DNA of 34,706 nt from a virus: the IMG/VR virus record IMGVR_UViG_3300033183_000060, positions 1 to 34,706 of that record, one strand, 5' to 3'. The notes beneath the pieces were generated by a model, which was not told where the DNA came from, did no database searches, and worked only from the letters and a program-made list of their open reading frames with translations. A program made the translations under genes and the position numbers. Of the stretch, positions 107 to 31,252 are shown one piece after another (positions within the stretch are counted from its first letter, which is position 1; each line of letters opens with the position of its first letter).

Positions 107-3100
107 TTATCGTTTACCTCTTCTTGATTTATTAGATTTTCTTAAATCTTTATTCCGCTGCTTTATTTCAGCTTTAATTTTATTTAACTCTTTATCTTGT
201 AAATTTAAATCCCACGTGTGCCAACCTGCAATAAGTGCTAATCTTGTCATAACCTCTAAGTCTTCGTCAAAAGCAGCAGATATATCTCTCATTGTAGTTA
301 CTGTAGATAATGCAGGTATGTTAAATAATGCGTCAAGCGCTGCAGACCCGATATCAATAGCAGGGTTATTTAAATCCCAACCAGCAGCACCAATATATCT
401 AGCGTTATATTCGTAATTTTTTAGCGCTCCATAGAAGTTTCTAGCTTTAATACCTACTGGAGGAGAAACATTAAGAACTTCTAAAACAACATAAGCGTAA
501 TCAGGTCTTTTACCTTCTTCTTTTCTTTGTTCTTGCTCTATAAATTTAATTATAGCGTTTTTAGTTGTTGCAACAGCTACACCGTACATACCTGTACCTT
601 TTAAGAACGAATCAACAACTCCGTTGATAACTCGTTTTTTCTTTTTAGCTCTTAATTCTTCTTCGTCGTCTCCCTCGTCATCACCAAACACACTAAACAT
701 GTCTCCGATTAGAGCTGTCTGCAACATAGAGAATATAATAGATTGAATTGCACCATAATAGAGCATTTTAAATACATTCTCTTTAGCATCACCTCTACCA
801 GCTAATAAATCTTTACCAGCTCTTACAGCTAACCTAGTCATCTGCATTGGTGTGTTTTGGAACGATAAAAATGTTCTACCAATAATATTGGTTTGTTGCT
901 GTGACAATCTATCAGGTCTTGCTGACTGCTGGGTTTCTTCAGATATTTCTTGGAAATCTATAAACGCTTTTCTTTCGGCCTCTTCTTTAGAAAGTCCTTG
1001 TTTTAAATAAGTATTTATTCTATTTCTATAAAAAGTAGAACCACCAGTAGCGATAGCCAAACTATCACCGAACTGAGTTAAAAGAAAACCAGCTTGAAGC
1101 ATCTTGCTTAATACGCCTTTGTAACCGTGTTTTTTAGCGGCTTCAGCGAGCTCAGCAGCGTTAATATCTGTTTTTAGACCTCCACGTCTTTCTTTTAAAT
1201 AATCAGAGTTTAGTATATAAACAAAATCTGTCCAGTATTGTTTTTGATTAGCAAAAGCTTTAGCTGCAGCAATAGGATTATTGTCACCCCAGTTTAAATA
1301 GTTAACGTTTGATATTTGCTGTAACACTGCGGATCTTCTATTAAAGAACATTGTTGTAGCAACAGAACCTCTAACCCAGTTCATAAACACGTTCATCTGT
1401 TTATTCATACCTTCAGGTCTTGAACTACCAGTTTCCATGCGGTAAAGCATGTCTTTTAACGCGTCCATGTATTCCTCGCCAAACGCAGCGGTAAGCTTAT
1501 TCATGTTATTCTTAGAGAATATCTCATCAATATTAGCCTTCCATTCTCCTAAGAACTGTTTTCTAGCTACTTTTTCAATAGCATTAATAACGTCAGTTCT
1601 AATACTATCAATCTGCCAAGTTTCAGGATCTGGATCTACCCAAAACTCTTTCATTGGTAAAATACCAGAAAGCTCATACCCTAACTCTTCAATGTCTGGA
1701 TTATTTTTTACAATTGTAACTAAGGCTTTTTGCGTATCTTCATCAACACCAGAAGGTGTTTTATCTATTTTAGAAAACATCCAAACTCTTAAAGCTTGTT
1801 CAAATGTAAAACCTCCAAAACCAGAGTCTTTTTTAAGCTTTTTAAATAACTGTTTGTTTTCTTTCTCTATTTTCTTTAAACTTCTAGCTACCCGCTGTCT
1901 TGTGTTATTTAGTCTATATGTAGCTTGTCCGTAAGGTTCGAAAAGATTTTTTTGCATCCATTCATACTGCTCTTCTCCTAATTTACCTTTAGCAAGCAAT
2001 GGATACATGAGACCTTCAAAATCATTTGCTGCAGGATTAATAACATCAAATCTTTTCTTTCTTTTAGCCGCTAAGTTTTTAGCTGTAGATAAATCTAGTT
2101 TTTGACTTGGAGTTATTCTAGGATCTTTTATAGATATCATACCCGCAAACTTAGTTTCTAAAGAACCTAAAGAATATAAACCATTAATTCTCCAGTCTTG
2201 TCTTTCTTCTTGAGTAAGTTTACTATCTTTTAAAACAATTTCTGGATTGTAAATAGTATGAGATGTACTTCTTGAGTCAATACCTGAGCCATCAACATAA
2301 ACGCTGTGGGTATACCAACCGATTTCTTTAGCAAAAAATCTAGACATTTTATGATAAAGCTGACCTCTGCTTTCTTCAGCCGCAGTAAAGTTTACAGCAT
2401 CTACGTTTGTTTGCTTTACAAGATCTTTAGCCGCATTAATTACGCTAGCTAAAACAGTGAATTGACTAACTTTTCCTTTAGCAGCGTCACCTGTTATTTC
2501 GTAAGTATACTCAAAGTCATCTGAATCTTCGTCTTTAATTTCGCTTTGTTTAGCAAAAGACAACGATGCTATTCTTAGATTATTTACAGTTCCTTTTGGA
2601 ATTTTTAGTTTTTCCTCAAGACCATCATATTTACCCTCATATCCCATCCAGAAGTCTTCTCCTAGATTTACAGTAAAATTCATGCGATAATTAATATCAG
2701 AAACTTTAAACTCGCCTATAAAATTATTATCGTCTATTTGTTCTACATCAACTTTTACAGCAGTATTTAAACTATAAGTCATTTGCTGATCAAAAGCTTG
2801 CTGATCAATTTGATCTAGTATGTCAGCGAAGTTTTCTTCTTTTGTTTTTTCTGCAAATAATGTTCCCGGCTTATTATAACGTATAATTCTACCTTGATTT
2901 CTTTTTAATGCTCTTCTATTTGCTAAGAAATTATCTACTGCCGATACGTCATTCGCATTTTTAAGTCCAGCAGTTTTACTGTCTTTAGCTTTAGAATCAA
3001 TTTCAGGAATTATGTATACAGTAGGTATAACTAAGGATATTCTTCTTTTAAACAAGTTGTCAATCATTATATCAGCCATAGAATCTACATTAGTAGGAAC

Positions 3101-6100
3101 ATGCTCACCGATTAACGCATTAGCTCTTTTGTTTTTTTCAGAATAGCTGTACATGTAACTTTTATCAACATCAACTAAGCTAAGTTTTCTAAATCCATTA
3201 GAGTCATTAGTTGTGCCTTGGTATATATTAATAGCATATCCTAACCATTGATCAAATTTTTCTTGAGTAGAATTTTTATTTATAGCTGGATCGAAATGGT
3301 TTGTTATATCTATAATTATACTTTGAAGTATTCTATTAGTGAGCGTAATTCCTTTTTTCCATTTAGCAGAATCAAACTTATCCATTTGAGACTGCCAATT
3401 TTTAGAATTTATCCCAGACACGTTATAAGGAGCTATACCTTTTACATCAGCGTCAAACTGTTTTACAAGTTCCCTAGTCTTAGGTGATATGATTTTACTT
3501 TTAGCAAAATCTACACCGATCAACATGTTTAACTCACCGTTGCTTATTAACGATTTAGCTATATCAGATAAATTATCAGTAGTGTCATTTGAGTTTGAAT
3601 TATACTTAAATGCTTTATGTTTTTTTGCTTCTTTCCATTCTACATCTATCAATCTATTTCCTTTTGCGTCTAGGTAAGCAGCTCCAGCGGCATTAGCTCT
3701 TATCGTATGTTGAAAAGCTGCTTTAGCTATTGAAATATTTCTGCGAAAACCAAAAATATTATCAGGAACTAATCTCATTGCTAAACCGACAAATTCGTTA
3801 TGTGGTTTTAAAACATCTAAAAAGAAATTCTGTAAACCAGAAGGCCCATCAGAAGTTCTCATAGCATTTGATAGATCTTTTACTCTTTGTGCTTGATCAC
3901 CTAAACCATAATCGTTAAGTTTTGAAACAGCGGCGTCGGTAAATTTAGCAAAATCTTTGGCTGCTTGTTTATATGGAACGTTAAGTGAATAAACACCGTC
4001 AACGGTACCTGATCTAATGTCAAGCTGAGTGTTCATAGACATACCCATTTCACCGCCAACAACTCTAACAGCTGTATTTGTGATTATCCTGTCTAATAAA
4101 TTAAGAAGACCTTTTGTGGTTTGAGATTCTTTAGATCTACCTGTAACACCTGGTTTTACACTACCATCTGGATTTAAGCCAATAGCATCTAAGAATTGAT
4201 CTCTGGTTAGATCTTTTATTTTTTCGAAAACAAATAAACCAGAGGGATCTTTAAATCTTTCTTCGTTTTTATTGTACGCGAAGTTTAAAACGTTCTTAGG
4301 CACGCCCGTAGACGTTCCTTTTAACGCTTCTGATGCGGCTTCTTGTGTGATAGCACCCTCAGGCAATATCTTGATATAAGTGTCGGCTATAGATGCTAAA
4401 AAGTTAGCAGCCGCAGAATATTCTCCACTCGAAAGGTTTTTCTTAGGATCTACAATTTTAGCTTCAGGTACTCCAGCTTTTTCAGCTACGTATTTAGTGG
4501 CTAATCTAGGTAAAGTTTTATAATTTTTACCATCTAACACTAAATCAGCATACATGTCTGTTATTTCATCGATAAGCTCTTGGTTTGTTTCTTTCCCAAG
4601 TACCTCAACTCCAGGTATGATTAGACCTTTTGTCTCATCAATAACTTCCTCTTGAATATCAATAGCTTCGTCAAAAGCTTGATCTTCTGCTTCTAATTCT
4701 CTTAACGAACCAACTTCTCCAGCTTCAATATCTATAGAAGTTGTACCAAACTCACCAAACTCTTTCTTATACTGATTAGATACGTCGCCTTTTCTAAATG
4801 CCAACTGCTTATTTATAAAACCTATTAAGCTATTATTTTGAGAAGGATCAAATCTCATTAATGTACCTGTTAAACCATCTTTAACGTCTTCTATAAAACG
4901 TTCAATAGGTTTACCATATATAACATCACCTTCGATACCTCTTCTGATTAGAGGATCAATTAGGTTGCCGTTTATTATTTTATCGTATACATTTATAAAC
5001 TCTTCAGAACCTTGAAACTCTTCTTTAGAAGCCCATTGGTAGTTACCGTTTTCATCTTTTTTACCAACAAGATTATCTATACGATCGTTAAGTTCTTTTT
5101 GACCTAAAGAAAAAGCATCAGACTTAACTTTTTGCTCTAATTCGTATTCCTCAGGTGCAGAAGCTCTTAGTCTATTCTTTTTAACTTTTTCGTCAAATGC
5201 ATCTATAAATCTAGCAATGTCCTCAGCTGTATTAAGATTTGAGTACATGTGCATTGCAGGACTTATAGAGTTTAGTACATCTCTAAATAAGTTCTTTAAG
5301 TTTAAACTTCTTTCAATAGTGTTGTTATCTAAAAAGCCCTGTCTTTTAAGGTCAGCATACGCCATTATTAACTCTTCAGCTAATGTTTCTTTGGTTAGGC
5401 CTACTTTTTTTGCAAATTGCTTGTACTGCTTAACTCTACCAATAAATTTTTCTAAAGAGACTTTATCGACGTTTGGAGTTGAATTTATTTTTTCCACAAG
5501 CTCATCAGCCGCTGCGATAAGTTTTTTACGGTTTATTTTACCGTTATCCATAGCCCAATGAGTAAGCTCATGCATGTAAGCAGCTTTAGCATAAGGCTCA
5601 TTAGCTATAACACCTTGCAATATAGCGTTTTCGTTGTAAATTAAACCTAAACCTTTTTCATACTTACCAAACTTGTTACCAGTGCTAAGATCATTAAAAA
5701 CATCTTTTAGTCTTTTCTTTTTAGTTTCAGATATTTCTAAATTATCTATTTCTTCTAAGGTACTTAAACCAAAAAACGCTTTACTTCCAACAACACCTTG
5801 TATTATTCTTCCTTCAAAGTTTTTTCTACCAAGATCGTAGTTAACTCTAGCTATTTGATCTTCTTGCATGCGAACATCATCAGTACGCTCGTTGAAATCT
5901 TTACCTAAGTATTTTTTAAGAAAAACGTCTTTAAGTAAAACTTCTTTTTGTTTTTGAAGATCATTTATTTTATCAGATATGATCTTGGTTTTGTCAGCAT
6001 AAGCTTGTTCTGTATCTTCAATGCCAGCTTCACCTATTTCCGCATATTTTTTACGTAAAGACTCAATTTCACCTTGTAATTCAAAAACTTTTTTTAACTC

Positions 6101-8344
6101 ACCCTCTGTTAAGTTTTGCAGCTTAACAAAGTTTATAGCTTTGTTTCTACCAAGCTCTGTTATTATTTCTCTAAGCTCCGTGTTGTTTTTAAATCTTTTA
6201 CCGTCAGCTTTAGCTTGTGCTTTTTCATTTAAAAGCTCGATAGCTCTAGTTGACAGTTTATTAAATTCTTTTCTATCAGCCTCTGTTAAACCTTGTTGTG
6301 TTATGATATCTACCACTGTCGTAGAAACAGATGGTGCTTGTAATACTAAAGTTGTTAAAGCTGTAGATGTAAATAAGTCAGCATCTATACCATCTAAAAA
6401 ACCTACTCTTTCATCTCCGGCTACATATTTACTAGTTATATTTTGAGCAAGAGCTGTAACTGTTTCTTCAGCTTGCTCTATAGCACTCCCTTTTACTAAT
6501 TGTTTTAATACTTTTTTAGACTGAGATCTCCAACCAACAGTGCCAGCTAAACTTCTACCCATATTAGACCATTGATCTAGAACTCTGATAGAACCTAGTC
6601 TTTCAGCTACAGTTTCTGTAACACCATAAAGTATAGCTGTAGATAATTTTTGTAGCTCTGTTAAGTTTACACTTTGTTCTAAATCAAAAATACGTTCATC
6701 TAAAAGTGTTTTTTCTACGGGATCAATTGTTTTTTCTCTTTTATCGTATAATCCCTCTACCCCAGGTGCTCCGTACAAAGCTATGTTTGCTTGTTCCTGA
6801 GCTATGTCCATTTGAGCATGCTGAGTTGAACCTGAGTAAGTACCCATTAATCCAGCAGTAGCTGTTTGTACCGTTCTAATAGCACCGAGAGCTGATCCAC
6901 CAGCCTTTAATATGTTACCAATTATACCGCCCGCCCAAACTGTAGCTATATTAGATGCTTGATCCGCAAAAACGTTGCCTGCTAAGTTGCCAAAATCGGA
7001 TATGCTTTTTACGTCTTTTAATTTAGGAGAAGGAACAAATTCCGCAACGTGTTTTTGAAATTGTTCATTAGCAAATTTAGAAGAAGCATCCGCCATTTTT
7101 CTAAATGCTTCGGCATTACCTTTATCCTTGCGTATTTCAGCTAAGTAAGCTAAACCTTCTAAACCTAAAGCTCCTAGCTTACCACCAGCCACAAATAAAG
7201 AAGTTTTTAATTGATCTACGCCTTTTTGGTATAAGTCATAATTATAAGCGGCAGCAGTAGAGGCAGCTGATATATCACCAAAGTTATCAAATATGATCTT
7301 GTTGTTTTTAAACTGCTCTTCTAATTGATCTGATTTTCTAAGTAGATCTAATCTATCTTGCTCGTAAGAATACTCGTTGCCAAACTCATCTGTTTTAACT
7401 TTGTTTAAGTCTTCGTAAGCTTGCTTATAACGTTTAAATATAGAGTTTCTTTGATTAAGCATGTCATTTCTGGTCTGCTCAAACTCATCTGCTTTTTCTT
7501 GATTACCAGCAAAAATATTAGCACCAACCATGTGAGATACTCTTTCTAGTTTAGCTAGATTTTCATTATCCCAGTCTTGTATTTCTTTTTCTAAAAAACT
7601 TAAGTTGTCAAGATTTTCTTTGTGTCTTTTATCATACAACTCAGTTTGTTTGTTTATTTCGTCTACAGTTTTACTGTAATCAGAAGCTATTTGTTCTGAT
7701 TTTTTAGCATAAGCTTTAAAGGCTATCCTTTCTGATTCTGGTAAATCTGTAAAGAACTTAGTTGCTAAACTTTCTTTTTGTTGCTGTATATATTTAGATC
7801 TTACGTTAGCAGGTAGATTTTTAAAAAAACCTACTGGATCTTGTAAATAATCTTGGTATTGATTGTATTTTTGTTTACCTAAGTAGCCTTCTACATCTAT
7901 TTGCTGAACCACGCCTGGAGCACCTGTTCCAGCGGAAATGGTTATTCTAGGCATCTCATCTAACTTAAAGTAAGACTCACCAAAATATTCAGCTTGTTGT
8001 TCTTCTGTTGTAAATAAAGCTTGTTTTATTTTTTCAGTAGCTTCACCATAAGTTATTTCAGCAGGTTTAGTTTCAAATTGTGTACCTACTGCTCCTATAC
8101 CAGGGCTAATTGTTAGTGATTTTTTTGGCTCAGCTTCTATTTTTTGTAATGCCAATGAAGTATCTTCCGGCTTGGATACCGTATCGGGTGCTGTAGTTTC
8201 TTCCACAGGCGCACCCGTAACCTGCGGTTGTTTCTTTCCCGCTTCAGCAGATGTTTTGTTATATTCTTTTATAACAGAAGCAATATTAGCCTCTGATTCT
8301 CCAGCATCAATCATGCGCTGAACAATAGCTTCTAATTCATTCAT
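107..8344 (-). CDS. Giant internal virion / ejection protein (2745 aa) with HEXXH metallopeptidase-like motif
   Basis: The largest gene of the window and the third of three consecutive putative ejection proteins, the place held by the long core protein gp16 in T7-like phages. The N-terminal ~350 residues are charged and helical. Hydrophobic alanine/glycine-rich stretches occur around residues 375-400, 460-520 and 655-690, suggesting membrane-active segments. HELTHW at 925-930, followed by a glutamate pair at 990-991 (LAEELIMAYAD), resembles a gluzincin-type zinc peptidase site (HEXXH plus a downstream Glu). A segment near 1955-2010 looks faintly like an acetyltransferase fold. Residues about 2320-2560, rich in aromatics, Gln and Arg with a hydrophobic segment near 2525-2545, resemble the C-terminal associated domains of phage polyvalent proteins. 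The end is strongly basic (KSRRGKR). No lysozyme or RNA polymerase motif was recognised. Such proteins travel in the capsid and enter the host with the DNA; all domain assignments are by eye. Confidence 0.75.
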   Translation of the reverse strand: MNELEAIVQRMIDAGESEANIASVIKEYNKTSAEAGKKQPQVTGAPVEETTAPDTVSKPEDTSLALQKIEAEPKKSLTISPGIGAVGTQFETKPAEITYGEATEKIKQALFTTEEQQAEYFGESYFKLDEMPRITISAGTGAPGVVQQIDVEGYLGKQKYNQYQDYLQDPVGFFKNLPANVRSKYIQQQKESLATKFFTDLPESERIAFKAYAKKSEQIASDYSKTVDEINKQTELYDKRHKENLDNLSFLEKEIQDWDNENLAKLERVSHMVGANIFAGNQEKADEFEQTRNDMLNQRNSIFKRYKQAYEDLNKVKTDEFGNEYSYEQDRLDLLRKSDQLEEQFKNNKIIFDNFGDISAASTAAAYNYDLYQKGVDQLKTSLFVAGGKLGALGLEGLAYLAEIRKDKGNAEAFRKMADASSKFANEQFQKHVAEFVPSPKLKDVKSISDFGNLAGNVFADQASNIATVWAGGIIGNILKAGGSALGAIRTVQTATAGLMGTYSGSTQHAQMDIAQEQANIALYGAPGVEGLYDKREKTIDPVEKTLLDERIFDLEQSVNLTELQKLSTAILYGVTETVAERLGSIRVLDQWSNMGRSLAGTVGWRSQSKKVLKQLVKGSAIEQAEETVTALAQNITSKYVAGDERVGFLDGIDADLFTSTALTTLVLQAPSVSTTVVDIITQQGLTEADRKEFNKLSTRAIELLNEKAQAKADGKRFKNNTELREIITELGRNKAINFVKLQNLTEGELKKVFELQGEIESLRKKYAEIGEAGIEDTEQAYADKTKIISDKINDLQKQKEVLLKDVFLKKYLGKDFNERTDDVRMQEDQIARVNYDLGRKNFEGRIIQGVVGSKAFFGLSTLEEIDNLEISETKKKRLKDVFNDLSTGNKFGKYEKGLGLIYNENAILQGVIANEPYAKAAYMHELTHWAMDNGKINRKKLIAAADELVEKINSTPNVDKVSLEKFIGRVKQYKQFAKKVGLTKETLAEELIMAYADLKRQGFLDNNTIERSLNLKNLFRDVLNSISPAMHMYSNLNTAEDIARFIDAFDEKVKKNRLRASAPEEYELEQKVKSDAFSLGQKELNDRIDNLVGKKDENGNYQWASKEEFQGSEEFINVYDKIINGNLIDPLIRRGIEGDVIYGKPIERFIEDVKDGLTGTLMRFDPSQNNSLIGFINKQLAFRKGDVSNQYKKEFGEFGTTSIDIEAGEVGSLRELEAEDQAFDEAIDIQEEVIDETKGLIIPGVEVLGKETNQELIDEITDMYADLVLDGKNYKTLPRLATKYVAEKAGVPEAKIVDPKKNLSSGEYSAAANFLASIADTYIKILPEGAITQEAASEALKGTSTGVPKNVLNFAYNKNEERFKDPSGLFVFEKIKDLTRDQFLDAIGLNPDGSVKPGVTGRSKESQTTKGLLNLLDRIITNTAVRVVGGEMGMSMNTQLDIRSGTVDGVYSLNVPYKQAAKDFAKFTDAAVSKLNDYGLGDQAQRVKDLSNAMRTSDGPSGLQNFFLDVLKPHNEFVGLAMRLVPDNIFGFRRNISIAKAAFQHTIRANAAGAAYLDAKGNRLIDVEWKEAKKHKAFKYNSNSNDTTDNLSDIAKSLISNGELNMLIGVDFAKSKIISPKTRELVKQFDADVKGIAPYNVSGINSKNWQSQMDKFDSAKWKKGITLTNRILQSIIIDITNHFDPAINKNSTQEKFDQWLGYAINIYQGTTNDSNGFRKLSLVDVDKSYMYSYSEKNKRANALIGEHVPTNVDSMADIMIDNLFKRRISLVIPTVYIIPEIDSKAKDSKTAGLKNANDVSAVDNFLANRRALKRNQGRIIRYNKPGTLFAEKTKEENFADILDQIDQQAFDQQMTYSLNTAVKVDVEQIDDNNFIGEFKVSDINYRMNFTVNLGEDFWMGYEGKYDGLEEKLKIPKGTVNNLRIASLSFAKQSEIKDEDSDDFEYTYEITGDAAKGKVSQFTVLASVINAAKDLVKQTNVDAVNFTAAEESRGQLYHKMSRFFAKEIGWYTHSVYVDGSGIDSRSTSHTIYNPEIVLKDSKLTQEERQDWRINGLYSLGSLETKFAGMISIKDPRITPSQKLDLSTAKNLAAKRKKRFDVINPAANDFEGLMYPLLAKGKLGEEQYEWMQKNLFEPYGQATYRLNNTRQRVARSLKKIEKENKQLFKKLKKDSGFGGFTFEQALRVWMFSKIDKTPSGVDEDTQKALVTIVKNNPDIEELGYELSGILPMKEFWVDPDPETWQIDSIRTDVINAIEKVARKQFLGEWKANIDEIFSKNNMNKLTAAFGEEYMDALKDMLYRMETGSSRPEGMNKQMNVFMNWVRGSVATTMFFNRRSAVLQQISNVNYLNWGDNNPIAAAKAFANQKQYWTDFVYILNSDYLKERRGGLKTDINAAELAEAAKKHGYKGVLSKMLQAGFLLTQFGDSLAIATGGSTFYRNRINTYLKQGLSKEEAERKAFIDFQEISEETQQSARPDRLSQQQTNIIGRTFLSFQNTPMQMTRLAVRAGKDLLAGRGDAKENVFKMLYYGAIQSIIFSMLQTALIGDMFSVFGDDEGDDEEELRAKKKKRVINGVVDSFLKGTGMYGVAVATTKNAIIKFIEQEQRKEEGKRPDYAYVVLEVLNVSPPVGIKARNFYGALKNYEYNARYIGAAGWDLNNPAIDIGSAALDALFNIPALSTVTTMRDISAAFDEDLEVMTRLALIAGWHTWDLNLQDKELNKIKAEIKQRNKDLRKSNKSRRGKR

Positions 8345-8350
8345 AGTATA

Positions 8351-9649
8351 TTAATCTTGGCTATATTTATTTATAAGTTCTTGTGCAGAAAGCGTAGTAT
8401 TATTATCACTTATATTCTTAGCATTTTTAAGCTTTTGCATGACTTGTTCAGCTGTGTCTGTTTTGAATAATTGTACAACAACACCTGTTTTATTATCTTT
8501 AACTCTATAACCTATTTCACCTTCAATAGAACCAGGAATAGGTGGCATCATTTGAAAATCATATTGCTGAATTAAATTAGAAACAGCTGTATATTTAGGA
8601 TCTTCAATACTAACACCTGTAGCGGAACCATCAAATCTTTTTTCAGGTCTTGCACTTATAACTTGATCCCACATATTTTTTGTTATAGGATTTTGTAGAA
8701 GTTTGTTTTGTTGTTTCTGAAGCTCCATCAAATCAACTTCCCATTTAGCTGGTTTGTCAACTTTAGGTTCTTCAGGTTCTGGAGCTAGTATATTTTGTAG
8801 CTCTCTTTCACCTTCAACCATAGCATTAAAACCCTGAACCTTATGTTCTATAACAGCTTGTTTTTGCTCTGGCGTGCCAGTATATTTTTCTGAAGCAGCA
8901 CCCCCAAGCTCATTGTGGTAGATATAAGCATACTCATCATTTTGAAGAGAGTTTGCTAATTGAGCTCTATATCTTTGTTCTGCATAGTTTTTAGCGTTAT
9001 CAAACTTGTTGTTTTTAGCTCCTTCTTTCAATATCTTTCTAGCTTCTTCAAACTCATCGTTATCAAAACTATTTAAACTATTTTGAATTTCTGTTTTGTC
9101 TATAACTCTAATAGAGTTCAACTGTCTTACAGACATTTCTTTTGAATTACCATCGGTATCAGTATACAATATTTTCATGTCTGTTCCGGAACCTTTAAAT
9201 TTTACAGATTCTGGATTTTCAGTGACAGCAGTTTTTAATTGTAAAAGCTCTGTGTTTCTAGCATCTAACTGATCGCCAGGCATAGATAAAATTTGCTTAA
9301 ATTTATCAAAACCCTGTTTGTAATCCCTTACTTCAAATAAATACTTTTCTTTTTCAGTTGGCGATAAACTAGAAAACTCATCAAAGTCTATAGCTTCTCT
9401 AATACCAGCTTGAAACTCATCATATATTCTATTATCTAAATCAGCATAACCACCAAGATCTGTTTTACTTAATAGCTCAGCTTCTGCTTTTTCGTTTTCA
9501 GCTTTAATACGCTGTCTTTCTTTTGCTTCTGCAGACAATCTTTCTGTCTGTCTAGCATAACCTTGCATCATAGTTCCGAAGCCTTGAGAAAAACCTCTTG
9601 AAAAAGCTGTTGGATCTGGAGCGTATATTTTTGGATTTCTGTAACTCAT
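8351..9649 (-). CDS. Putative internal virion protein (gp15-like position), 432 aa
   Basis: A soluble, highly charged, mostly helical protein with no recognised enzymatic motif. The N-terminus (residues 1-25) is Gly/Phe/Ser-rich (RGFSQGFGTMMQGYARQ) and is followed by a helical, possibly coiled-coil stretch rich in Glu, Lys and Ala (about 30-65). A Pro/Glu linker lies near 290-300 (LAPEPEEPKVDKP). It sits between a gp14-like small ejection protein and the giant protein, separated by 1 and 6 bp, so the three are almost certainly co-translated. By position it corresponds to the middle core protein of podoviruses (T7 gp15-like), which helps form the conduit for DNA ejection. Sequence similarity to T7 gp15 is not evident; the role is inferred from synteny only. 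Confidence 0.6.
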   Translation of the reverse strand: MSYRNPKIYAPDPTAFSRGFSQGFGTMMQGYARQTERLSAEAKERQRIKAENEKAEAELLSKTDLGGYADLDNRIYDEFQAGIREAIDFDEFSSLSPTEKEKYLFEVRDYKQGFDKFKQILSMPGDQLDARNTELLQLKTAVTENPESVKFKGSGTDMKILYTDTDGNSKEMSVRQLNSIRVIDKTEIQNSLNSFDNDEFEEARKILKEGAKNNKFDNAKNYAEQRYRAQLANSLQNDEYAYIYHNELGGAASEKYTGTPEQKQAVIEHKVQGFNAMVEGERELQNILAPEPEEPKVDKPAKWEVDLMELQKQQNKLLQNPITKNMWDQVISARPEKRFDGSATGVSIEDPKYTAVSNLIQQYDFQMMPPIPGSIEGEIGYRVKDNKTGVVVQLFKTDTAEQVMQKLKNAKNISDNNTTLSAQELINKYSQD

Positions 9650-9650
9650 A

Positions 9651-10415
9651 TTAAATACCTTTTAAACCAGCAGCTTTCCAAGCTCCTCTGTTCATTGTTC
9701 CACCGTGAGATTTATATTCCATAAAAGAACCAGACGTTGGATTTCCACTAAATGGATTAACGCCTCCTAAATAAGAAACACCAAAACCTGCTGCAACACC
9801 AATAGCTTGTCCTAAACCTGCACTAGCAGCTTGTCTTTGCCCCATTTCAATTGCTCTATATTGCTCAGCCATTGCCGATGCTCTATCTAATTGTCTTAAC
9901 TCTCTTTGTTCTCTTTGACCAAACACAAAAGCTTTACCTTGAGCTTGAGCACCTTGTACTCTAGCAGCTTCTGACATTTGTGCTTTTTGTAGTTCTAACT
10001 CACCTTTAGCTCTTAGTCTAGCGTTTTCAGCTTCTTGTTTTTCAATGGTTGCTGATATTTGTTGTTTTCCTTTAGCAGCAGCTTGAGCTAATGCAGTGGC
10101 ACCACCTGCACCAGCGCCGGTAGCTCTTAACGTATCTAGTGTTTGAGCTAAAGACAAATCTTGCTGCTCAGCTTGAAATTCAGCGGCTTGAGTAGCGACT
10201 TGTAAATTAGCAAAAGGGTTTTGTAGCATCGAAGAAAGATCTTTGATACCAGCGTAAGGGTCTATAATCTCTTGTCTGTTAGCTTCTAATGCTTTAATTC
10301 TAGCCTCTGCTCTTGCTGCATCTCTAGCAGCTCTCTTAGCTTTTGAACCAGCACTTATGCTCTGAACAAGACCTGAAATACCTTGGCCTATGGCCATAAG
10401 CGTCATTGGATCCAT
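9651..10415 (-). CDS. Putative internal virion protein, T7 gp14-like, 254 aa
   Basis: The N-terminus (MDPMTLMAIGQGISGLVQS) is a short amphipathic or hydrophobic helix. It is followed by a long Ala/Arg/Glu/Gln-rich helical region (about 20-195), including AKRAARDAARAEARIKALEA, and then a Gly/Ala-rich hydrophobic segment at about 200-218 (GLGQAIGVAAGFGVSYLGG). This layout is typical of small ejection proteins annotated 'virion core protein, T7 gp14 family' in podoviruses and crAss-like phages, which insert in the outer membrane during infection. It begins immediately after the stop of the 406-aa nozzle part and its own stop is 1 bp from the next start, consistent with one translationally coupled ejection operon. 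Family assignment rests on composition, size and gene order. Confidence 0.65.
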   Translation of the reverse strand: MDPMTLMAIGQGISGLVQSISAGSKAKRAARDAARAEARIKALEANRQEIIDPYAGIKDLSSMLQNPFANLQVATQAAEFQAEQQDLSLAQTLDTLRATGAGAGGATALAQAAAKGKQQISATIEKQEAENARLRAKGELELQKAQMSEAARVQGAQAQGKAFVFGQREQRELRQLDRASAMAEQYRAIEMGQRQAASAGLGQAIGVAAGFGVSYLGGVNPFSGNPTSGSFMEYKSHGGTMNRGAWKAAGLKGI

Positions 10416-11636
10416 TTAGTAACTATTTATATTAAAATTAGTAGAAACTGCAAAAAGTTCGTTATAGTTAGTATCACTTGTTTTCACAGTTAGTTTAGTG
10501 TAAAAGCCTTTTATTCCTGATATATCTTGTTGAAAAACAACTTCATTGGCATTTATAGGTGAGTTGTTGAATATATTAGAAAAATATCTATTATCCATTT
10601 TTTGGAAAGCAGAAATAATAAGATCTTGATTTGTGTTGCTATACACACCGATGTTGTTGGCTGTATCTGAATCTGTCTCTATATTAACAACCTCCCAATT
10701 TGGAGTTCCTTCATAATTTAAAGTTAAGAAGTTTTTGTTTACAGAGGCATTTTGATTAAATATTAATTTTACCTCAGACGTATAATCTGTTCCGTAAAAA
10801 TTATTATAATTAACACCCGTGTAATGTTCATATAATTCACATGCTGAGTTAAATGTATAAAACTTAGCATCTAGACTACCACCTAGTTGAGGTATATAAC
10901 TATATCTAGACACCCAACCATTAGTTGTTTCATCAAATGCTAAAGTTGTATCAGTGATATTAGTTCCTTGTGCAGATAAAATAAAATCTTTATTATACAT
11001 ATCCCACATACCAACTATCCTGTCTGCATTAGTTATAAGATCTCTAAAATAACCTCGCATACCATAGTTAGATATTTCTGTAATACCGTCACGAGAGAGT
11101 CTTAAAACAGCTCCTTTTGGCTTGTCTACAAAGTATTTTCTACCCGCAAACGTTGCAAAGCTTTCAGGGTTTTTACCTATACCATAATTTGTCCCGTAAG
11201 GAATAATTTGACCGATAACAATATTACCTGCTGCAGTAATTTTACCACCTTCAGCAGTATAAATAGCATCTTTGTCAATTAAAGCTCTAGATACTTTTTC
11301 TTCTTGAAATATATTAAGATTTGTATCCTCGGCATATAACTTTTGAATACTACCGTTTTGTATGTCTACAGCTTTGGTAATATTTTCTCCAATTGAAAAA
11401 TCGTTTGTATTGTTTACTCCGGTTTTATTGTTAAATATACCAGAGTAAATCATAGCATTAGGTCTTATTTCACGGCCGTATGTATCATCTGTAATATGTG
11501 CGCGTACGCCATAATCAACAAAAGGTTCATTATAACCACCTTTTATTCTTGATTCTTCAACATGATAATCATCATTACCACTAGTACCTTTTAAAATAAA
11601 GCAATTAAAATATTCTACTTCTTTTATATATGCCAT
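10416..11636 (-). CDS. Tail nozzle protein, C-terminal half (split gene), 406 aa
   Basis: Contains stretches typical of the second half of phage tail nozzle/stabilisation proteins: EESRIKGGYNEPFVDYGVRA (about 27-46), a glycine- and tyrosine-rich beta region, NGSIQKLYAEDTNLNIFQEE (about 93-112), KVSRALIDKDAIYTAEGGKI (next), NPESFATFAGRKYFVDK and LRLSRDGITEISNYGMRGYF. In relatives these blocks continue in the same polypeptide as the N-terminal part encoded just upstream. Here they begin with a separate ATG 10 bp after the upstream stop, and the intervening in-frame triplets include a TAA, so the two ORFs are not one reading frame. The product should assemble with the 974-aa protein to form the beta-propeller nozzle through which DNA exits. 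Assignment to the nozzle family is recognition by eye; the split is directly visible. Confidence 0.65.
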   Translation of the reverse strand: MAYIKEVEYFNCFILKGTSGNDDYHVEESRIKGGYNEPFVDYGVRAHITDDTYGREIRPNAMIYSGIFNNKTGVNNTNDFSIGENITKAVDIQNGSIQKLYAEDTNLNIFQEEKVSRALIDKDAIYTAEGGKITAAGNIVIGQIIPYGTNYGIGKNPESFATFAGRKYFVDKPKGAVLRLSRDGITEISNYGMRGYFRDLITNADRIVGMWDMYNKDFILSAQGTNITDTTLAFDETTNGWVSRYSYIPQLGGSLDAKFYTFNSACELYEHYTGVNYNNFYGTDYTSEVKLIFNQNASVNKNFLTLNYEGTPNWEVVNIETDSDTANNIGVYSNTNQDLIISAFQKMDNRYFSNIFNNSPINANEVVFQQDISGIKGFYTKLTVKTSDTNYNELFAVSTNFNINSY

Positions 11637-11646
11637 TTTAGTTTAT

Positions 11647-14571
11647 TTATTGTGTACATGATGTTGGACTAACCACCCATGCCCCAGTATTATTACCTTG
11701 TAGCCATTTACCTACAGAACCTGCTGTTGATTTATACCAACCTGAAGGAGCCAATGTGGTGAGCTGCGCATTTGTATATAGAGTTCCTGGAGTTGTTAAA
11801 TCCATAGGTTCGTTAGTTCCACTATAGTATATTGTAATTTCTTCCCATGTTGAGGTATCTGTACTTGACGCGCACGCTTGTGTTGCATTGTCAAAAGCAC
11901 TCCACGCAGCTTTGTAATATTGAATAGTAGCACCTGAATCACCGCTACCAATTATATTACCACTAGTTAAATTTATACGTATAGTATCCGTGCCTGTGGA
12001 ACTTCCATCTGACACTTGAAGTTCTACAACAATATAATCACCAGTAACATAATGTTGACTTAAATGATGATTATCATCTAAATATATATAACCGCTAGAT
12101 TGTTGTGCTGTATAAGAAACACCGAAAAAAGATCCATTAGCTTGCTGTACTGTGTTATCTTCGTTGTAATGAACTTCACTGTTTATAGTCACCCCTGTTA
12201 CCCCATTATAACCAATAGATGACCCATCTGTAACATTAAAATCAGCTATTGAAACACTAGTGCTTTCACCTTGATTTGTTGACATCGTGATAACGTCATT
12301 AACAAATTGTATGGTAGGATTTGCGTTTGTTATATTTAAAGTAACTTGACTTGTAACACTGCCTCCACCAAAAGATCCAGTAACCCAAAATTGTTTTTCA
12401 TTATTTGAAGTAGTTGTGCTGTCGTAAACAAAATTAGACTTTGTTTTAACTTTATATTTATTATCAGAAGGATCTAATACAATTTCAAAATCAGCATTTG
12501 GAGGATCTAAAGTACCACCTTGATTATCTGTAATTTCAAATGTAACACCTGAATTTAACAATGTTTTTGTTGCTGGCGTTGTTGAAGTATCATCATAAAA
12601 ACCATGCAAAGTAGCAACATAATTACCTAATAATACAGATTCTGAAAAATTTTCTTCTAAATCAGTATCATCAGTACTATTTAAGCTTATTGCTGTTAAT
12701 GTTATACTATTAATATTAGTATTTAATTCTGATACCAGCCCACACGTGGGTGTTTCATAATAAATATCTAACGTAGATTTCACTGGTTCTGTTTCAAACA
12801 CAGTTAGCTTGTTAAAGAAATTATTAGCTGTTACCCCTAAATCTGTTGTAGATAATCTAGCCATAAGCGGATTATCAGAGGCATTGTACATTGAAGTAAT
12901 TGCACTAGTTGTATCTGTTTTTAACCCCAAATCAGTTGGTAAACCTATTGCTGTTATATCAATTAAACCACTATTTGAAATTACAGATTTAGCATAATCA
13001 CCTCCTGCGCTGGGGTTATTATAAATATTAACAACCTTAGGATACAATTTCACTTCTGAAGAAGCTAATTTGTCATTTTCTAAGTTATAATTAGAGCTAT
13101 CACGTGGAACTTTATTAACGTTGCTATTTATAAGCTCAATATAGTCTTTGCTATAGTTAAGTACTCCACTTGTATATACATTGTAATATTCTTGTTCTGC
13201 TTGTTTTACTACAATTTTATATGAGTACCAACCTAAAGGGTTGTCTGTAGCATGCCAAGCATTTTTTACAGCAATATTAGTTGCCACAGGTTTAAATACA
13301 ACTTTTAAAGCATCCCCTAAGAAAGTTGAGTTATCAAACGTGTCATCCTTGGGCTCAACATATATAGTGCTGTTTTCAGAAAGTATTACTGGTGATGTTC
13401 TACCATACCTATCGCTAAATACAATACCTACTTCGTAAGCACGTCTTTGTTTTATAGAATGCCTAGAAAGTACTGTAGATTCCTTAGGACCGTATATGAC
13501 ATCATAGTCACATATTTGATCATCTAAATCGTGTCCTAATTGTATATTGCCGTAAACTAATCTATTAGCTATAACTTCTTGTGCTAAAGCTTTTACTGGT
13601 ACATTATCAAATACTCTCGTAAGTTGTCTTTCCGGTAATGTTGATTTTGGAAGTGTAGATTTGTAAGAATATGTTAATGATCCACCCGAAGCTTCTGTGG
13701 CTTTTTTAGTTTCAATTATTCTTATAGCAGCAGAGTCAGACTCTTTGTATAAAATATCAATATGAGTAATATTTAAGCCATTAGGCACACTTATTGATAA
13801 ATCAACTTGATTAATACCGTTAACCATACCTTTATACTCAGAAGTTCCAAATATATTATTTTCATCATCAAGCGATACATTATTACTATTAGTAATATCG
13901 CCATCTTTAGGTACAAATGCTACAGGTGAAAAAGGTGATATTAAAGAGTATGTATTGTCTTCAAATTTATATCTATACGCAAATCGAACAAACTTTTCCT
14001 CTATTTCTCTTGACAAAATAGTTGATTTATTTGACATGCCTGTGATTGTAGGTGGCGCGTATGGAGCATATTTAGCTACAGATACTTTATCTTCTGAGTC
14101 GTAATAGCTGTTATCAGCTAAATCTATATTTATACGTCTAGGTTGATTTCTATTATCTGTCCAGAATAAATAATTTTCTAAAACATTAACGCCTATGATA
14201 GGGTTATCTTCGTGGAACTTTAGCCATGAACCACTAACTATAATTACTGGATCGCTACCAGGAACACACTTGTAAATTCTATGACTACCAGAAGTAGTTT
14301 GAACACTATTTGTTACAAAGTAATATATAGTATTGTTTTTATCATCGAAAAAAGCCCCTATAACTTTATAAGAGCTTGATAAACCCAATGCGTTTGTATA
14401 AGCAAGTTTATTACTTTTAACATTATGTAGCGCACCCATATCAGATCCGCTACCTTCATTTTTAGTTATTTGTACATTTAACGCATCTCGATACTCACCC
14501 TCAGGTAGTAATCGGTCATCAAGGCTTTTATTCATCTTCCCTTTTAGGAAGGTGTTTTTGATTTCCGGCAT
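11647..14571 (-). CDS. Tail nozzle / stabilisation protein, N-terminal part with Ig-like insert, 974 aa
   Basis: The start MPEIKNTFLKGKMNKSLDDR, followed by LLPEGEYRDALNVQ, is characteristic of phage nozzle or tail-stabilisation proteins (functional equivalents of T7 gp12 / P22 gp10). The first ~600 residues contain repeated beta-strand motifs (IIGVNVLENYLFWTDNRNQP; RRINIDLADNSY), expected of a propeller. From about residue 615 to 880 the sequence changes to Thr/Ser/Asn-rich Ig- or cadherin-like beta modules (for example VTLNITNANPTIQFVNDVIT, then VVELQVSDGSSTGTDTIRIN). The last ~90 residues (YYKAAWSAFDNATQAC to the end) form a small Cys-containing module common at the ends of Bacteroidota surface and fibre proteins. 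The usual C-terminal half is encoded separately downstream. Start ATG follows the 357-aa gene's stop by 4 bp. Confidence 0.7.
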   Translation of the reverse strand: MPEIKNTFLKGKMNKSLDDRLLPEGEYRDALNVQITKNEGSGSDMGALHNVKSNKLAYTNALGLSSSYKVIGAFFDDKNNTIYYFVTNSVQTTSGSHRIYKCVPGSDPVIIVSGSWLKFHEDNPIIGVNVLENYLFWTDNRNQPRRINIDLADNSYYDSEDKVSVAKYAPYAPPTITGMSNKSTILSREIEEKFVRFAYRYKFEDNTYSLISPFSPVAFVPKDGDITNSNNVSLDDENNIFGTSEYKGMVNGINQVDLSISVPNGLNITHIDILYKESDSAAIRIIETKKATEASGGSLTYSYKSTLPKSTLPERQLTRVFDNVPVKALAQEVIANRLVYGNIQLGHDLDDQICDYDVIYGPKESTVLSRHSIKQRRAYEVGIVFSDRYGRTSPVILSENSTIYVEPKDDTFDNSTFLGDALKVVFKPVATNIAVKNAWHATDNPLGWYSYKIVVKQAEQEYYNVYTSGVLNYSKDYIELINSNVNKVPRDSSNYNLENDKLASSEVKLYPKVVNIYNNPSAGGDYAKSVISNSGLIDITAIGLPTDLGLKTDTTSAITSMYNASDNPLMARLSTTDLGVTANNFFNKLTVFETEPVKSTLDIYYETPTCGLVSELNTNINSITLTAISLNSTDDTDLEENFSESVLLGNYVATLHGFYDDTSTTPATKTLLNSGVTFEITDNQGGTLDPPNADFEIVLDPSDNKYKVKTKSNFVYDSTTTSNNEKQFWVTGSFGGGSVTSQVTLNITNANPTIQFVNDVITMSTNQGESTSVSIADFNVTDGSSIGYNGVTGVTINSEVHYNEDNTVQQANGSFFGVSYTAQQSSGYIYLDDNHHLSQHYVTGDYIVVELQVSDGSSTGTDTIRINLTSGNIIGSGDSGATIQYYKAAWSAFDNATQACASSTDTSTWEEITIYYSGTNEPMDLTTPGTLYTNAQLTTLAPSGWYKSTAGSVGKWLQGNNTGAWVVSPTSCTQ

Positions 14572-16386: not shown

Positions 16387-16653
16387 TTATTTATATGTTA
16401 AATGATCTTTTTCTAAATAAGTTTTTAATCTATGGCAATTAGCACATAGCGTTCTTAAATTAGATGGTTCATTGTTTTTTTTGTTACCATCGATGTGGTC
16501 GACATCTAATTGACACTTGTGTAGCGAAATAAATCCACATTGATCACATTTGTCTTTTTTATATTTTCTCCAAGGCCTTGTGTTTGATCTACAGGCTTTG
16601 CACTTTTTTCTTCCGTTTTCAGCTTTATTACCGCACTCAACACAAAACTTCAT
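16387..16653 (-). CDS. Free-standing HNH homing endonuclease, 88 aa
   Basis: A compact zinc-binding HNH nuclease. Cys pairs at 4/7 and 18/21 form an N-terminal zinc knuckle. Cys36/Cys39 with Cys70/Cys73 frame the HNH beta-beta-alpha core. The catalytic signature is LDVDHIDGNKKNNEPSNLRT (about 49-68), with D52-H53 as metal-binding and general-base residues and N61/N65 downstream, closed by LCANCHRLK. It lies between the terminator after the 246-aa gene and the first ring-protein gene (2-bp gap), in the middle of the structural module. That placement is typical of a selfish homing gene spreading among related phages. Neighbouring genes are intact, so it is not inside an intron or a disrupted gene. 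Nickase or double-strand cutting and the target site cannot be told from sequence. Confidence 0.88.
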   Translation of the reverse strand: MKFCVECGNKAENGRKKCKACRSNTRPWRKYKKDKCDQCGFISLHKCQLDVDHIDGNKKNNEPSNLRTLCANCHRLKTYLEKDHLTYK

Positions 16654-29940: not shown

Positions 29941-30681
29941 CTATTGATTACCGCCTCCTGGAGTTGGGAAGCCTCCGCCACCGCCTCCACCGCCTGAACC
30001 TGCTGCTTGTGTAACAGTTACAGTATGTAAAAGATTATCGCTTGAATAACAGCTACCGCTAATGTAAATATCAAAAGTCAAAGACCTGCTATTTGTAGTG
30101 CTGTTGGTTTCTATGTTTAAGTATCTTATTGTATTACCTTCTGAAGCAGTAAAGCTAATATTAGCACTTCCACTACCACCAGTAGTATCTGAACTAGTGC
30201 TTAATCCTGCCCAAGTGACTGAAGTAATCTCCATATAGATAATAGCCCCTGAACCTTGTGGTGTATATTCAAGGTCAAAATCCCATCTGAAACTTTGTCC
30301 TGCTGCTGCTGCACTAATAGACGTACCTGTAAAACAAGAGGTATTGTAGTTAAGCTTCACACAACCTAATTCTCTATTTCCAATATGCCCCCTAAATTCA
30401 GACATAGCATAAGGTGTGGCTAAATAACCACTACCTTGTTCTAGGTTAGGGTCGTAGGGCGCATCAACAGTAAAACCATTTACAGTCCACTCGTTAGTCA
30501 TAGGTGGACAGAAGTTATAATCACTACCATTAGCGTTACCTCCACGCATAAGGTCGTACATAGATATATTAGTTAGGTTCACAGTAGAACCACTAACGTA
30601 ACCATTGACTCCTACGTCATTGTATCTGCGTTCTTTTGCTACGCCTAGCATTGATATTTGTCCACTACTTGGTACTGCCAT
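29941..30681 (-). CDS. Fibre/adhesin-like structural protein with glycine-rich C-terminus, 246 aa
   Basis: The opening MAVPSSGQISMLGVAKERRY is a conserved start found on many phage fibre and structural proteins (it likely binds the virion). The middle (about 20-110) contains a Tyr/Asn/Gly-rich region with several Cys. Residues about 115-225 form beta-strands ending HTVTVTQAA, reminiscent of the last strand of BACON/Ig-like domains common in Bacteroidota phage fibres. The end is GSGGGGGGGGFPTPGGGNQ, a poly-Gly region like those of phage tip adhesins. It starts 17 bases before the end of the endonuclease gene and precedes the 112-aa gene. The likely role is carbohydrate or surface binding at the tail tip. 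Domain calls are by eye. Confidence 0.65.
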   Translation of the reverse strand: MAVPSSGQISMLGVAKERRYNDVGVNGYVSGSTVNLTNISMYDLMRGGNANGSDYNFCPPMTNEWTVNGFTVDAPYDPNLEQGSGYLATPYAMSEFRGHIGNRELGCVKLNYNTSCFTGTSISAAAAGQSFRWDFDLEYTPQGSGAIIYMEITSVTWAGLSTSSDTTGGSGSANISFTASEGNTIRYLNIETNSTTNSRSLTFDIYISGSCYSSDNLLHTVTVTQAAGSGGGGGGGGFPTPGGGNQ

Positions 30682-31252
30682 CTAATCTAGCTTTTAGTTC
30701 CTCAATCTGTTTATATTCCCATTTGTAACCAAAGGCTTGTTTAAACTTGCCCTTGCAACATCTAATGATATTAGTTGAAGTTCCATTGAAATATCTAGCT
30801 GCATCAATAATACCATCCCATTCCTTAATAAAGTTACCATCTAAATCCATTTGAATGATTGGTGACTTTTTTGCTTTTGACATCTTTCGCTTTGAACTTT
30901 CAGACATCTTCTTGCCTTTATGTGCTTTAGAAAGGTTTTCTTTGTGTTTTTTTGTTGGGGTATATTTTCTACCAACAGTACCCTCGCCACCATCAGTCAG
31001 GTTGGCAAGGCTTCCAGTTTTAATATCTATCCTTCCATATAGCTTAATAAACTCAACCTCCTTTTCTTTGGCTTGTTCCATACTTATATCATCCATAAGT
31101 ATTTCTACTTCGTAGTCAGTCTTGGCTACTATTCGTTGCCATAGGATATTCCTGCAACGCTTGGTTGTAGCCCTATACATATCGTTATCAGATATACCTA
31201 TGTAAAAAGGTTCGTTCTTGTCAAGTCTTATATGTCTGTAAACGTAAGCCAT
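30665..31252 (-). CDS. Free-standing GIY-YIG homing endonuclease, 195 aa
   Basis: The N-terminal GIY-YIG nuclease domain starts at YVYRHIRLDKNEPFYIGIS (3-21), with the two strands VYRH and YIG that name the family. It continues with RCRNILWQRIV and the catalytic-region Glu in MEQAKEKEVEFIKLYG (about 58-73). SLANLTDGGEGTVGRK (about 81-96) closes the domain, as usual in this family. DNA-binding modules follow: KKHKENLSKAHKGKKMSESS (about 101-120, NUMOD3-like repeats) and a C-terminal NUMOD1-like unit QMDLDGNFIKEWDGIIDAAR ending YFNGTSTNIIRCCKGKFKQA. The gene lies exactly between the fibre stop and the next fibre-like gene (ATG directly after the fibre TAG), a typical homing-gene insertion that leaves neighbours intact. 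Confidence 0.9.
   Translation of the reverse strand: MAYVYRHIRLDKNEPFYIGISDNDMYRATTKRCRNILWQRIVAKTDYEVEILMDDISMEQAKEKEVEFIKLYGRIDIKTGSLANLTDGGEGTVGRKYTPTKKHKENLSKAHKGKKMSESSKRKMSKAKKSPIIQMDLDGNFIKEWDGIIDAARYFNGTSTNIIRCCKGKFKQAFGYKWEYKQIEELKARLDGSTK

Follow-up and report, generated by a model that had tools for sequence, protein, structure and literature searches.

A conserved HEXXH...E site, predicted to belong to a zincin-like metallopeptidase, in a cysteine-free giant protein of a marine podovirus-like phage

Known giant phage proteins and the locus compared with them

Polyvalent phage proteins with zincin domains and N4-like ejection cassettes are already known. Polyvalent proteins with a zincin-like metallopeptidase (MPTase) are giant multidomain proteins encoded beside virion genes, and their peptidase has a HEXXH helix followed by a later Glu helix, with variable inserts between these last two helices. 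Self-processing by the zincins of giant phage virion proteins has been proposed from sequence, is expected of such domains at least as much as attack on the host, and is thought to occur in P1 DdrB; the N4 virion RNA polymerase (vRNAP) has such a domain, yet is packaged unprocessed (PMC5512222 for all of these points).

In N4, gp52, gp51 and gp50 end the structural block in small-medium-giant order, and none of the three has a Cys; gp53 has four. N4-type virion RNA polymerases lack Cys, which has been tied to their injection and passage through the tail (PMC3915230). T7 gp15 and gp16 are also Cys-free, and gp14 has one Cys. T7 gp16, which carries a transglycosylase, is the largest ejection protein, stands last in its cassette and has a basic C-terminal end whose residues are required for infectivity (PMC8954989), while gp71-73 of phage DEV have been proposed as equivalents of T7 gp16-14 (PMC10925440).

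We analyzed the window, an entire linear viral record of 34,706 bases from a marine virus with a bacterial host. A first-pass annotation had reported one 2745-aa gene filling nearly a quarter of it, and this was borne out as a single ORF on the minus strand with an ATG start (Table 1). Like the polyvalent proteins, it is a giant encoded beside virion genes, the last after terminase, portal and several virion structural proteins, with GroEL and GroES also among its neighbors. The annotation had overlooked that its 2745 residues include no Cys. With the two Cys-free ORFs listed in Table 1 it forms a three-gene putative ejection cassette with the order and sizes of the internal-protein cassettes of N4 and T7, and its C-terminal end is basic, as in T7 gp16.

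Table 1. Features of the giant gene and its cassette in the window (residue numbers refer to the giant protein)
Feature	Position	Strand	Basis or remark
Giant ORF, 2745 aa, no Cys	107..8344	-	last gene of the late/virion module
Putative second cassette gene, 432-aa ORF without Cys	8351..9649	-	position of phi38:1 gp100
254-aa Cys-free ORF, putative first cassette gene	9651..10415	-	homologous to Gundel_1 gp072 (E 2e-6)
Short conserved N-terminal stretch, residues 32-84	8093..8251	-	common to a few relatives
Gly/Ala-rich, mildly hydrophobic, residues 381-404	7133..7204	-	hydropathy
Gly/Ala-rich, mildly hydrophobic, residues 466-492	6869..6949	-	hydropathy
Predicted zincin-like metallopeptidase domain, residues 857-1010	5315..5776	-	AlphaFold2 (mean pLDDT 75.9, pTM 0.71); alignment
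HELTH, residues 925-929	5558..5572	-	predicted zinc ligands H925/H929, general base E926
E991, predicted third zinc ligand	5372..5374	-	alignments and AlphaFold2 model
Moderately conserved region, residues ~1100-1450	3995..5047	-	BLAST-detectable in ~30 relatives
Conserved all-helical C-terminal region, residues 2061-2745	110..2164	-	BLAST coverage, AlphaFold2, fold matches
Basic C-terminal tail, last 20 residues with net charge +8	110..139	-	charge count

Gene by gene, the late block matched that of Cellulophaga phage phi38:1 (Pervagoviridae) and, in part, that of Tenacibaculum phage Gundel_1 (Pachyviridae). Identity to phi38:1 was 36% for the portal, 37% for the terminase, 37% for gp93 and 35% for gp97. 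The syntenic last genes are phi38:1 gp101 (1691 aa), Gundel_1 gp074 (2482 aa), gp18 of the Flavobacterium phage elemoF (3694 aa) and CDS0069 of the Maribacter phage Panino (1829 aa), the first three of which are structural proteins by annotation. All four are Cys-free giants like that of the window, but only Gundel_1 gp074, annotated 'structural protein', could be aligned to it by BLAST (25% over 259 aa, E 6e-10, with a further weak match at residues 439-493, E 0.001), and those of phi38:1 and Panino lack HEXXH.

Three other features of the record concern genes outside the cassette. Two adjacent ORFs of 974 and 406 aa (11647-14571 and 10416-11636, minus strand) together correspond to phi38:1 gp97 (1324 aa), so that this gene is split in the window phage. 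An 88-aa Cys-rich ORF (9 Cys; 16387-16653, minus strand) in the structural block encodes, by its match to Pfam HNH (E 8e-6), a homing-type HNH enzyme and is probably a selfish insertion. A second homing-endonuclease-like gene lies at 30665-31252 on the minus strand (PHROG 314, E 7e-23).

Homology to N4 gp50 was rejected, as no sequence similarity was found. Its HELVH lies at residue 2228 of 3500, whereas the HEXXH of the window giant is in the first third, and no RNA polymerase domain of the T7-like type was recognized in the window giant by Pfam; on the absence of this domain and of similarity to gp50, an N4-type virion RNA polymerase was discarded as a candidate. Comparison with T7 gp16 gave no convincing similarity (E 0.011), and the window giant differs from gp16 in that the latter carries the transglycosylase.

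We then compared Cys content across the family. Zero Cys in 2745 residues has a P of 1.6e-7 against the 0.57% of the window's other genes and of about 0.0025 against the 0.22% of its late virion genes, with the caveat that the background of other ORFs of at least 300 aa may include spurious frames. In 68 relatives (described below), the sequence up to the last 120 residues (178,603 residues in all) contains 10 Cys, and 62 of the 68 have none in this part; the giant of MW202828 has one. The whole three-gene cassette is Cys-free in the window and in all four of phi38:1, Gundel_1, elemoF and Panino. Among 62 loci (80 fetched, minus 18 in which the two upstream genes were unreadable), the first gene upstream was Cys-free in 57 and the second in 59. 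Several further virion proteins encoded by the window and by N4 are Cys-free too, so the absence of Cys from a short protein is not very informative. Depletion across 68 giant relatives favors ejection of a partly unfolded chain. Because the gene is the last of a Cys-free triple, is syntenic with genes of cultured podoviruses, of which three are annotated as structural, and has a parallel in N4, the giant is likely an ejected protein; to that extent, and by analogy, the earlier proposal of ejection with the DNA stands. Where an entire ejection cassette is depleted of Cys, this may serve to mark ejected proteins from sequence data alone.

Two further claims about composition fared less well. 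Several membrane-like stretches had been described, but only one 19-residue window of the giant exceeded a Kyte-Doolittle value of 1.5 (2535-2554) and the two Gly/Ala-rich stretches peaked at just 1.2-1.3, so hydropathy does not support a transmembrane protein. The C-terminal domain, described as aromatic-rich, is just slightly so (F/W/Y 9.9% in residues 2061-2745 vs 7.9-8.9% in the rest of the giant).

Conservation and predicted fold of the HEXXH...E site

Searches with the whole giant against Pfam, PHROGs and PDB sequences, by tblastn against phages and against viral contigs returned nothing, as did residues 715-1215 against viral contigs and the peptidase segment alone in the phage tblastn. 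Relatives were instead reached by way of the portal (80 loci) and then the C-terminus, with the giant matched in 18 of 25 long records. In a scan of IMG/VR with a C-terminal profile, 588 of 600 stretches with the pattern were relatives. The best 80 of them were kept, 68 of which contain the giant ORF in full (median 2676 aa, range 2021-4044). A first set of 24 includes one wrong ORF without HEXXH (G004, which contributes none of the 85 segments discussed below) and one entry, G001, from the same contig as L167 of the later scan.

HELTHW at residues 925-930 and EE at 990-991 were both found where they had been reported, and HELTHW is the sole HEXXH of the giant, in which composition predicts 0.008. 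The proposed peptidase site withstood the refuting condition set for it, a lack of HEXXH conservation in homologues: the motif is present in 64 of the 68 complete giants among the best 80 relatives. Three of the remaining four have HDxxH (L166, L175, L190) and L167 has neither. In the first set, with G001 excluded, 9 of 13 further complete IMG/VR relatives have HEXXH (absent from G010, G014, G020 and G025), which brings the count to 74 of 82 complete giants with the window's own included. Three of five named relatives carry it (MW202828 twice, Gundel_1 and elemoF), the exceptions being phi38:1 gp101 and Panino. One of the relatives counted as lacking the motif, L125 (G025), matches the peptidase profile (E 1.3e-8) and reads HExxxH at residues ~1003-1008, perhaps a dead site or a variant.

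Conservation at the site extended to a residue that had played no part in selecting the sequences. Across an alignment of 59 sequences, which are 10-23% identical to the window giant, just four columns were invariant, H925, E926, H929 and E991; the first three were selection criteria and E991 was not. Glu occupies the E991 column in 81 of the 85 segments aligned on their HEXXH, and an E-x-x-x-x-F/Y-S/A-D pattern around it supports the register of the alignment. Conservation of the peptidase is almost confined to these four active-site residues. The peptidase profile, of which the window is itself a part, scored the window at 9e-20. The absence of a family match for the window's own domain might suggest that HELTHW and EE arose by chance, but this has a negligible probability given the expectation from composition, the frequency of HEXXH among relatives, the invariance of the unselected E991 and the profile score, and we regard it as ruled out by conservation. 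Conservation strongly supports the HEXXH...E site of the giant, a predicted zinc-peptidase site.

AlphaFold2, run on the 59-sequence alignment (scores in Table 1), predicted, along the chain, a strand, a helix, two more strands, the HEXXH helix, some inserted helices and the Glu helix with E991 (in model numbering, E18-21, H34-49, E54-57, E61-65, H78-95 with HEXXH and H146-162 with E991). This predicted order is that of the zincin layout (a three-stranded sheet with an N-terminal helix, then the HEXXH helix and the later Glu helix, as in the polyvalent MPTase, where variable inserts also precede the last helix); the assignment is based on the order of these elements. The gluzincin-type site proposed in the first-pass annotation is thus upheld by conservation and by the predicted strand and helix order, with E991 the residue of the EE pair that matters. 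Pfam, PHROG and PDB sequences yielded no peptidase match for the window protein. Foldseek (E of at least 0.6) and VIA listed no zincin for the peptidase model, but unrelated helical proteins, the helical part dominating. The PF18818 cut-off was not reached, with no Pfam match for the window giant and none in the 25 most-hit families (59 domain sequences). In hhalign, the domain aligned to M78 with P 0.0007 and probability 27% (reversed control 0.65) and to PF18818 with P 0.005 and probability 7% (reversed control 0.63); both alignments are weak and dominated by the selected HEXXH. The comparison profiles were built from searches of 4 and 148 genomes for PF18818 and of 60 for M78.

The usual phage wall peptidases are not known to have the HEXXH plus Glu layout of zincins, and the domain gave no match to wall-hydrolase families. 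Both observations make it highly improbable that the domain serves as an endopeptidase of the cell wall, clearing a path through peptidoglycan for the ejection tube in the way that T7 gp16 uses its transglycosylase, even though the giant has the same cassette position as gp16, the bearer of a wall-cutting domain (PMC8954989).

The relatives with HDxxH, and the several without any motif, could instead indicate that packaging or structure is the reason for retaining the zincin fold, with catalysis dispensable or lost in some lineages. The N4 vRNAP offers a precedent, since the corresponding region is required for encapsidation though the protein is packaged uncut (PMC5512222). We consider such a role quite unlikely, however, as retention of H, E, H and E991 at 10-23% identity is typical of catalytic constraint and a structural role would not require exactly these four residues.

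A conserved C-terminus and exchanged upstream regions

The conserved part of the giant is its C-terminal 685 residues, covered by ~96 alignments compared with 10 overlapping the peptidase when 102 sequences were searched. AlphaFold2 predicted this region to be all-helical (pLDDT 76.7), and its fold matched predicted structures of viral polyvalent proteins, among them one named 'PolyVal ADP-ribosyltransferase' (E 2.5e-7) and another named 'Large polyvalent protein associated domain' (E 3.7e-6). A match of the model to the phage ejectosome 8vb2 was dismissed as noise (Z 4.2). A net charge of at least +4 in the last 20 residues was found in 40 of 48 relatives without the C-terminal Cys motif described below. 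Since there are relatives without HEXXH, peptidase activity would not be essential to this C-terminal chassis.

Upstream of the chassis, the giants are mosaic, and the peptidase is among the parts exchanged between relatives with C-termini up to 95% identical. Peptidase identity ranged from 20 to 93% (median 36) among the 26 pairs whose C-termini are 80% identical or more, on a measure that gives ~25 for unrelated sequences. L182 and L188 have C-termini 95% identical, but BLAST aligns nothing ahead of residue 1156 of L182, ~150 residues past its HEXXH. In L161 and L181, the N-terminus, peptidase and C-terminus are common to both and the middle differs.

The predicted peptidase is the one enzymatic domain recognized in the window giant, and relatives add kinase/zeta and HAD-like domains. 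Directly before the conserved C-terminus, relatives but not the window giant have a HAD-phosphatase-like domain (DFDDTL...LTARP...FADDA), at 2447-2724 aa in L141 and 2494-2771 aa in L192, and also in L135, L139, L140 and others. LTAR occurs within 450 aa in 52 of the 68 giants, and 40 of the 68 have both HAD motif I and motif II. In L141 and L192, these two motifs are separated by a P-loop kinase (AAA_33/zeta toxin, with E 1.5e-11 in L141), a combination that suggests a polynucleotide kinase-phosphatase-like module carried by a virion protein. At the C-terminal end itself, 19 of the 68 complete giants have one or two DUF5763-like C-x9-C-x10-C-x2-H motifs (in the last 40-95 aa of L136, L138, L141, L150, L192 and others), which account for nearly all cysteines of the giant family.

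Possible roles of the peptidase and relation to described families

The account that we favor, to which we give a probability of roughly 0.6 as a whole, is that of an ejected internal protein with a zincin-like, self-cutting peptidase on a chassis with swappable parts. The phage would be a podovirus with kinship to the Pervagoviridae and Pachyviridae, which infect marine Flavobacteriia, and the giant would be the last of its three internal (ejection) proteins and the largest. Packed in the capsid, the giant would exit through the portal and tail, partly unfolded, before or with the DNA, and refold in the host envelope or cytoplasm. Residues ~857-1010 would act as the metallopeptidase, in which H925, H929 and E991 hold zinc and E926 activates water. 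The C-terminal 685 residues may be a common chassis for packaging or ejection and the N-terminal and central regions exchangeable cargo; the peptidase would release parts of the giant by cutting the chain to which it belongs, either during ejection or once inside the new host.

For self-processing as the peptidase's job, our confidence falls a little short of even. We favor it on account of an active site that persists as the surrounding cargo changes, and of the parallel with P1 DdrB. The uncut packaging of N4 vRNAP indicates that self-cleavage is not general and argues against cleavage before packaging. The same ejected zincin might instead cut host proteins, such as defense or regulatory factors, early in infection, which we think rather unlikely; host proteins and the cell wall were the two targets put forward in the first-pass annotation. 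Swapping and diversification of the peptidase and N-terminal regions over a constant C-terminus are what host-directed effectors would show, and relatives carry other candidate effector domains in their zeta-toxin/AAA_33 kinase and HAD-like domains. However, self-processing predicts diversification equally, as cut sites would shift with swapped cargo.

The best reading of the giant is as a sequence-divergent, polyvalent-type phage protein (Iyer et al. 2017). It differs from the described polyvalent proteins in that the window giant has no match to PF18818 or any LPD domain, and only one relative hits LPD23, weakly. No Pfam or PHROG model matches the window giant, and no description of the giant family was found in the parts of the literature searched. 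A broader proposal, possible but doubtful, is that the family represents a widespread 'polymorphic ejection' system with a conserved chassis, swapped cargo and an obligatory metallopeptidase site that frees the cargo inside the host, the cargo of relatives including the polynucleotide kinase-phosphatase-like module. If true, this kinase-phosphatase-like cargo would be a pre-made repair or counter-defense kit delivered before phage gene expression.

The family bears on the role of zincin domains in giant phage virion proteins. It offers many natural variants, members without HEXXH and domain-swapped pairs with near-identical chassis, and the cultured relatives with the motif, Gundel_1 and elemoF, make the role of the zincin testable in isolates.

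C-terminal relatives also occurred in 13 contigs of bacterial or archaeal bins (L209-L221). Several of these bins are Bacteroidota; the others include Maricaulis, Aliivibrio and Woesearchaeota, whose contigs are probably misbinned phage contigs.
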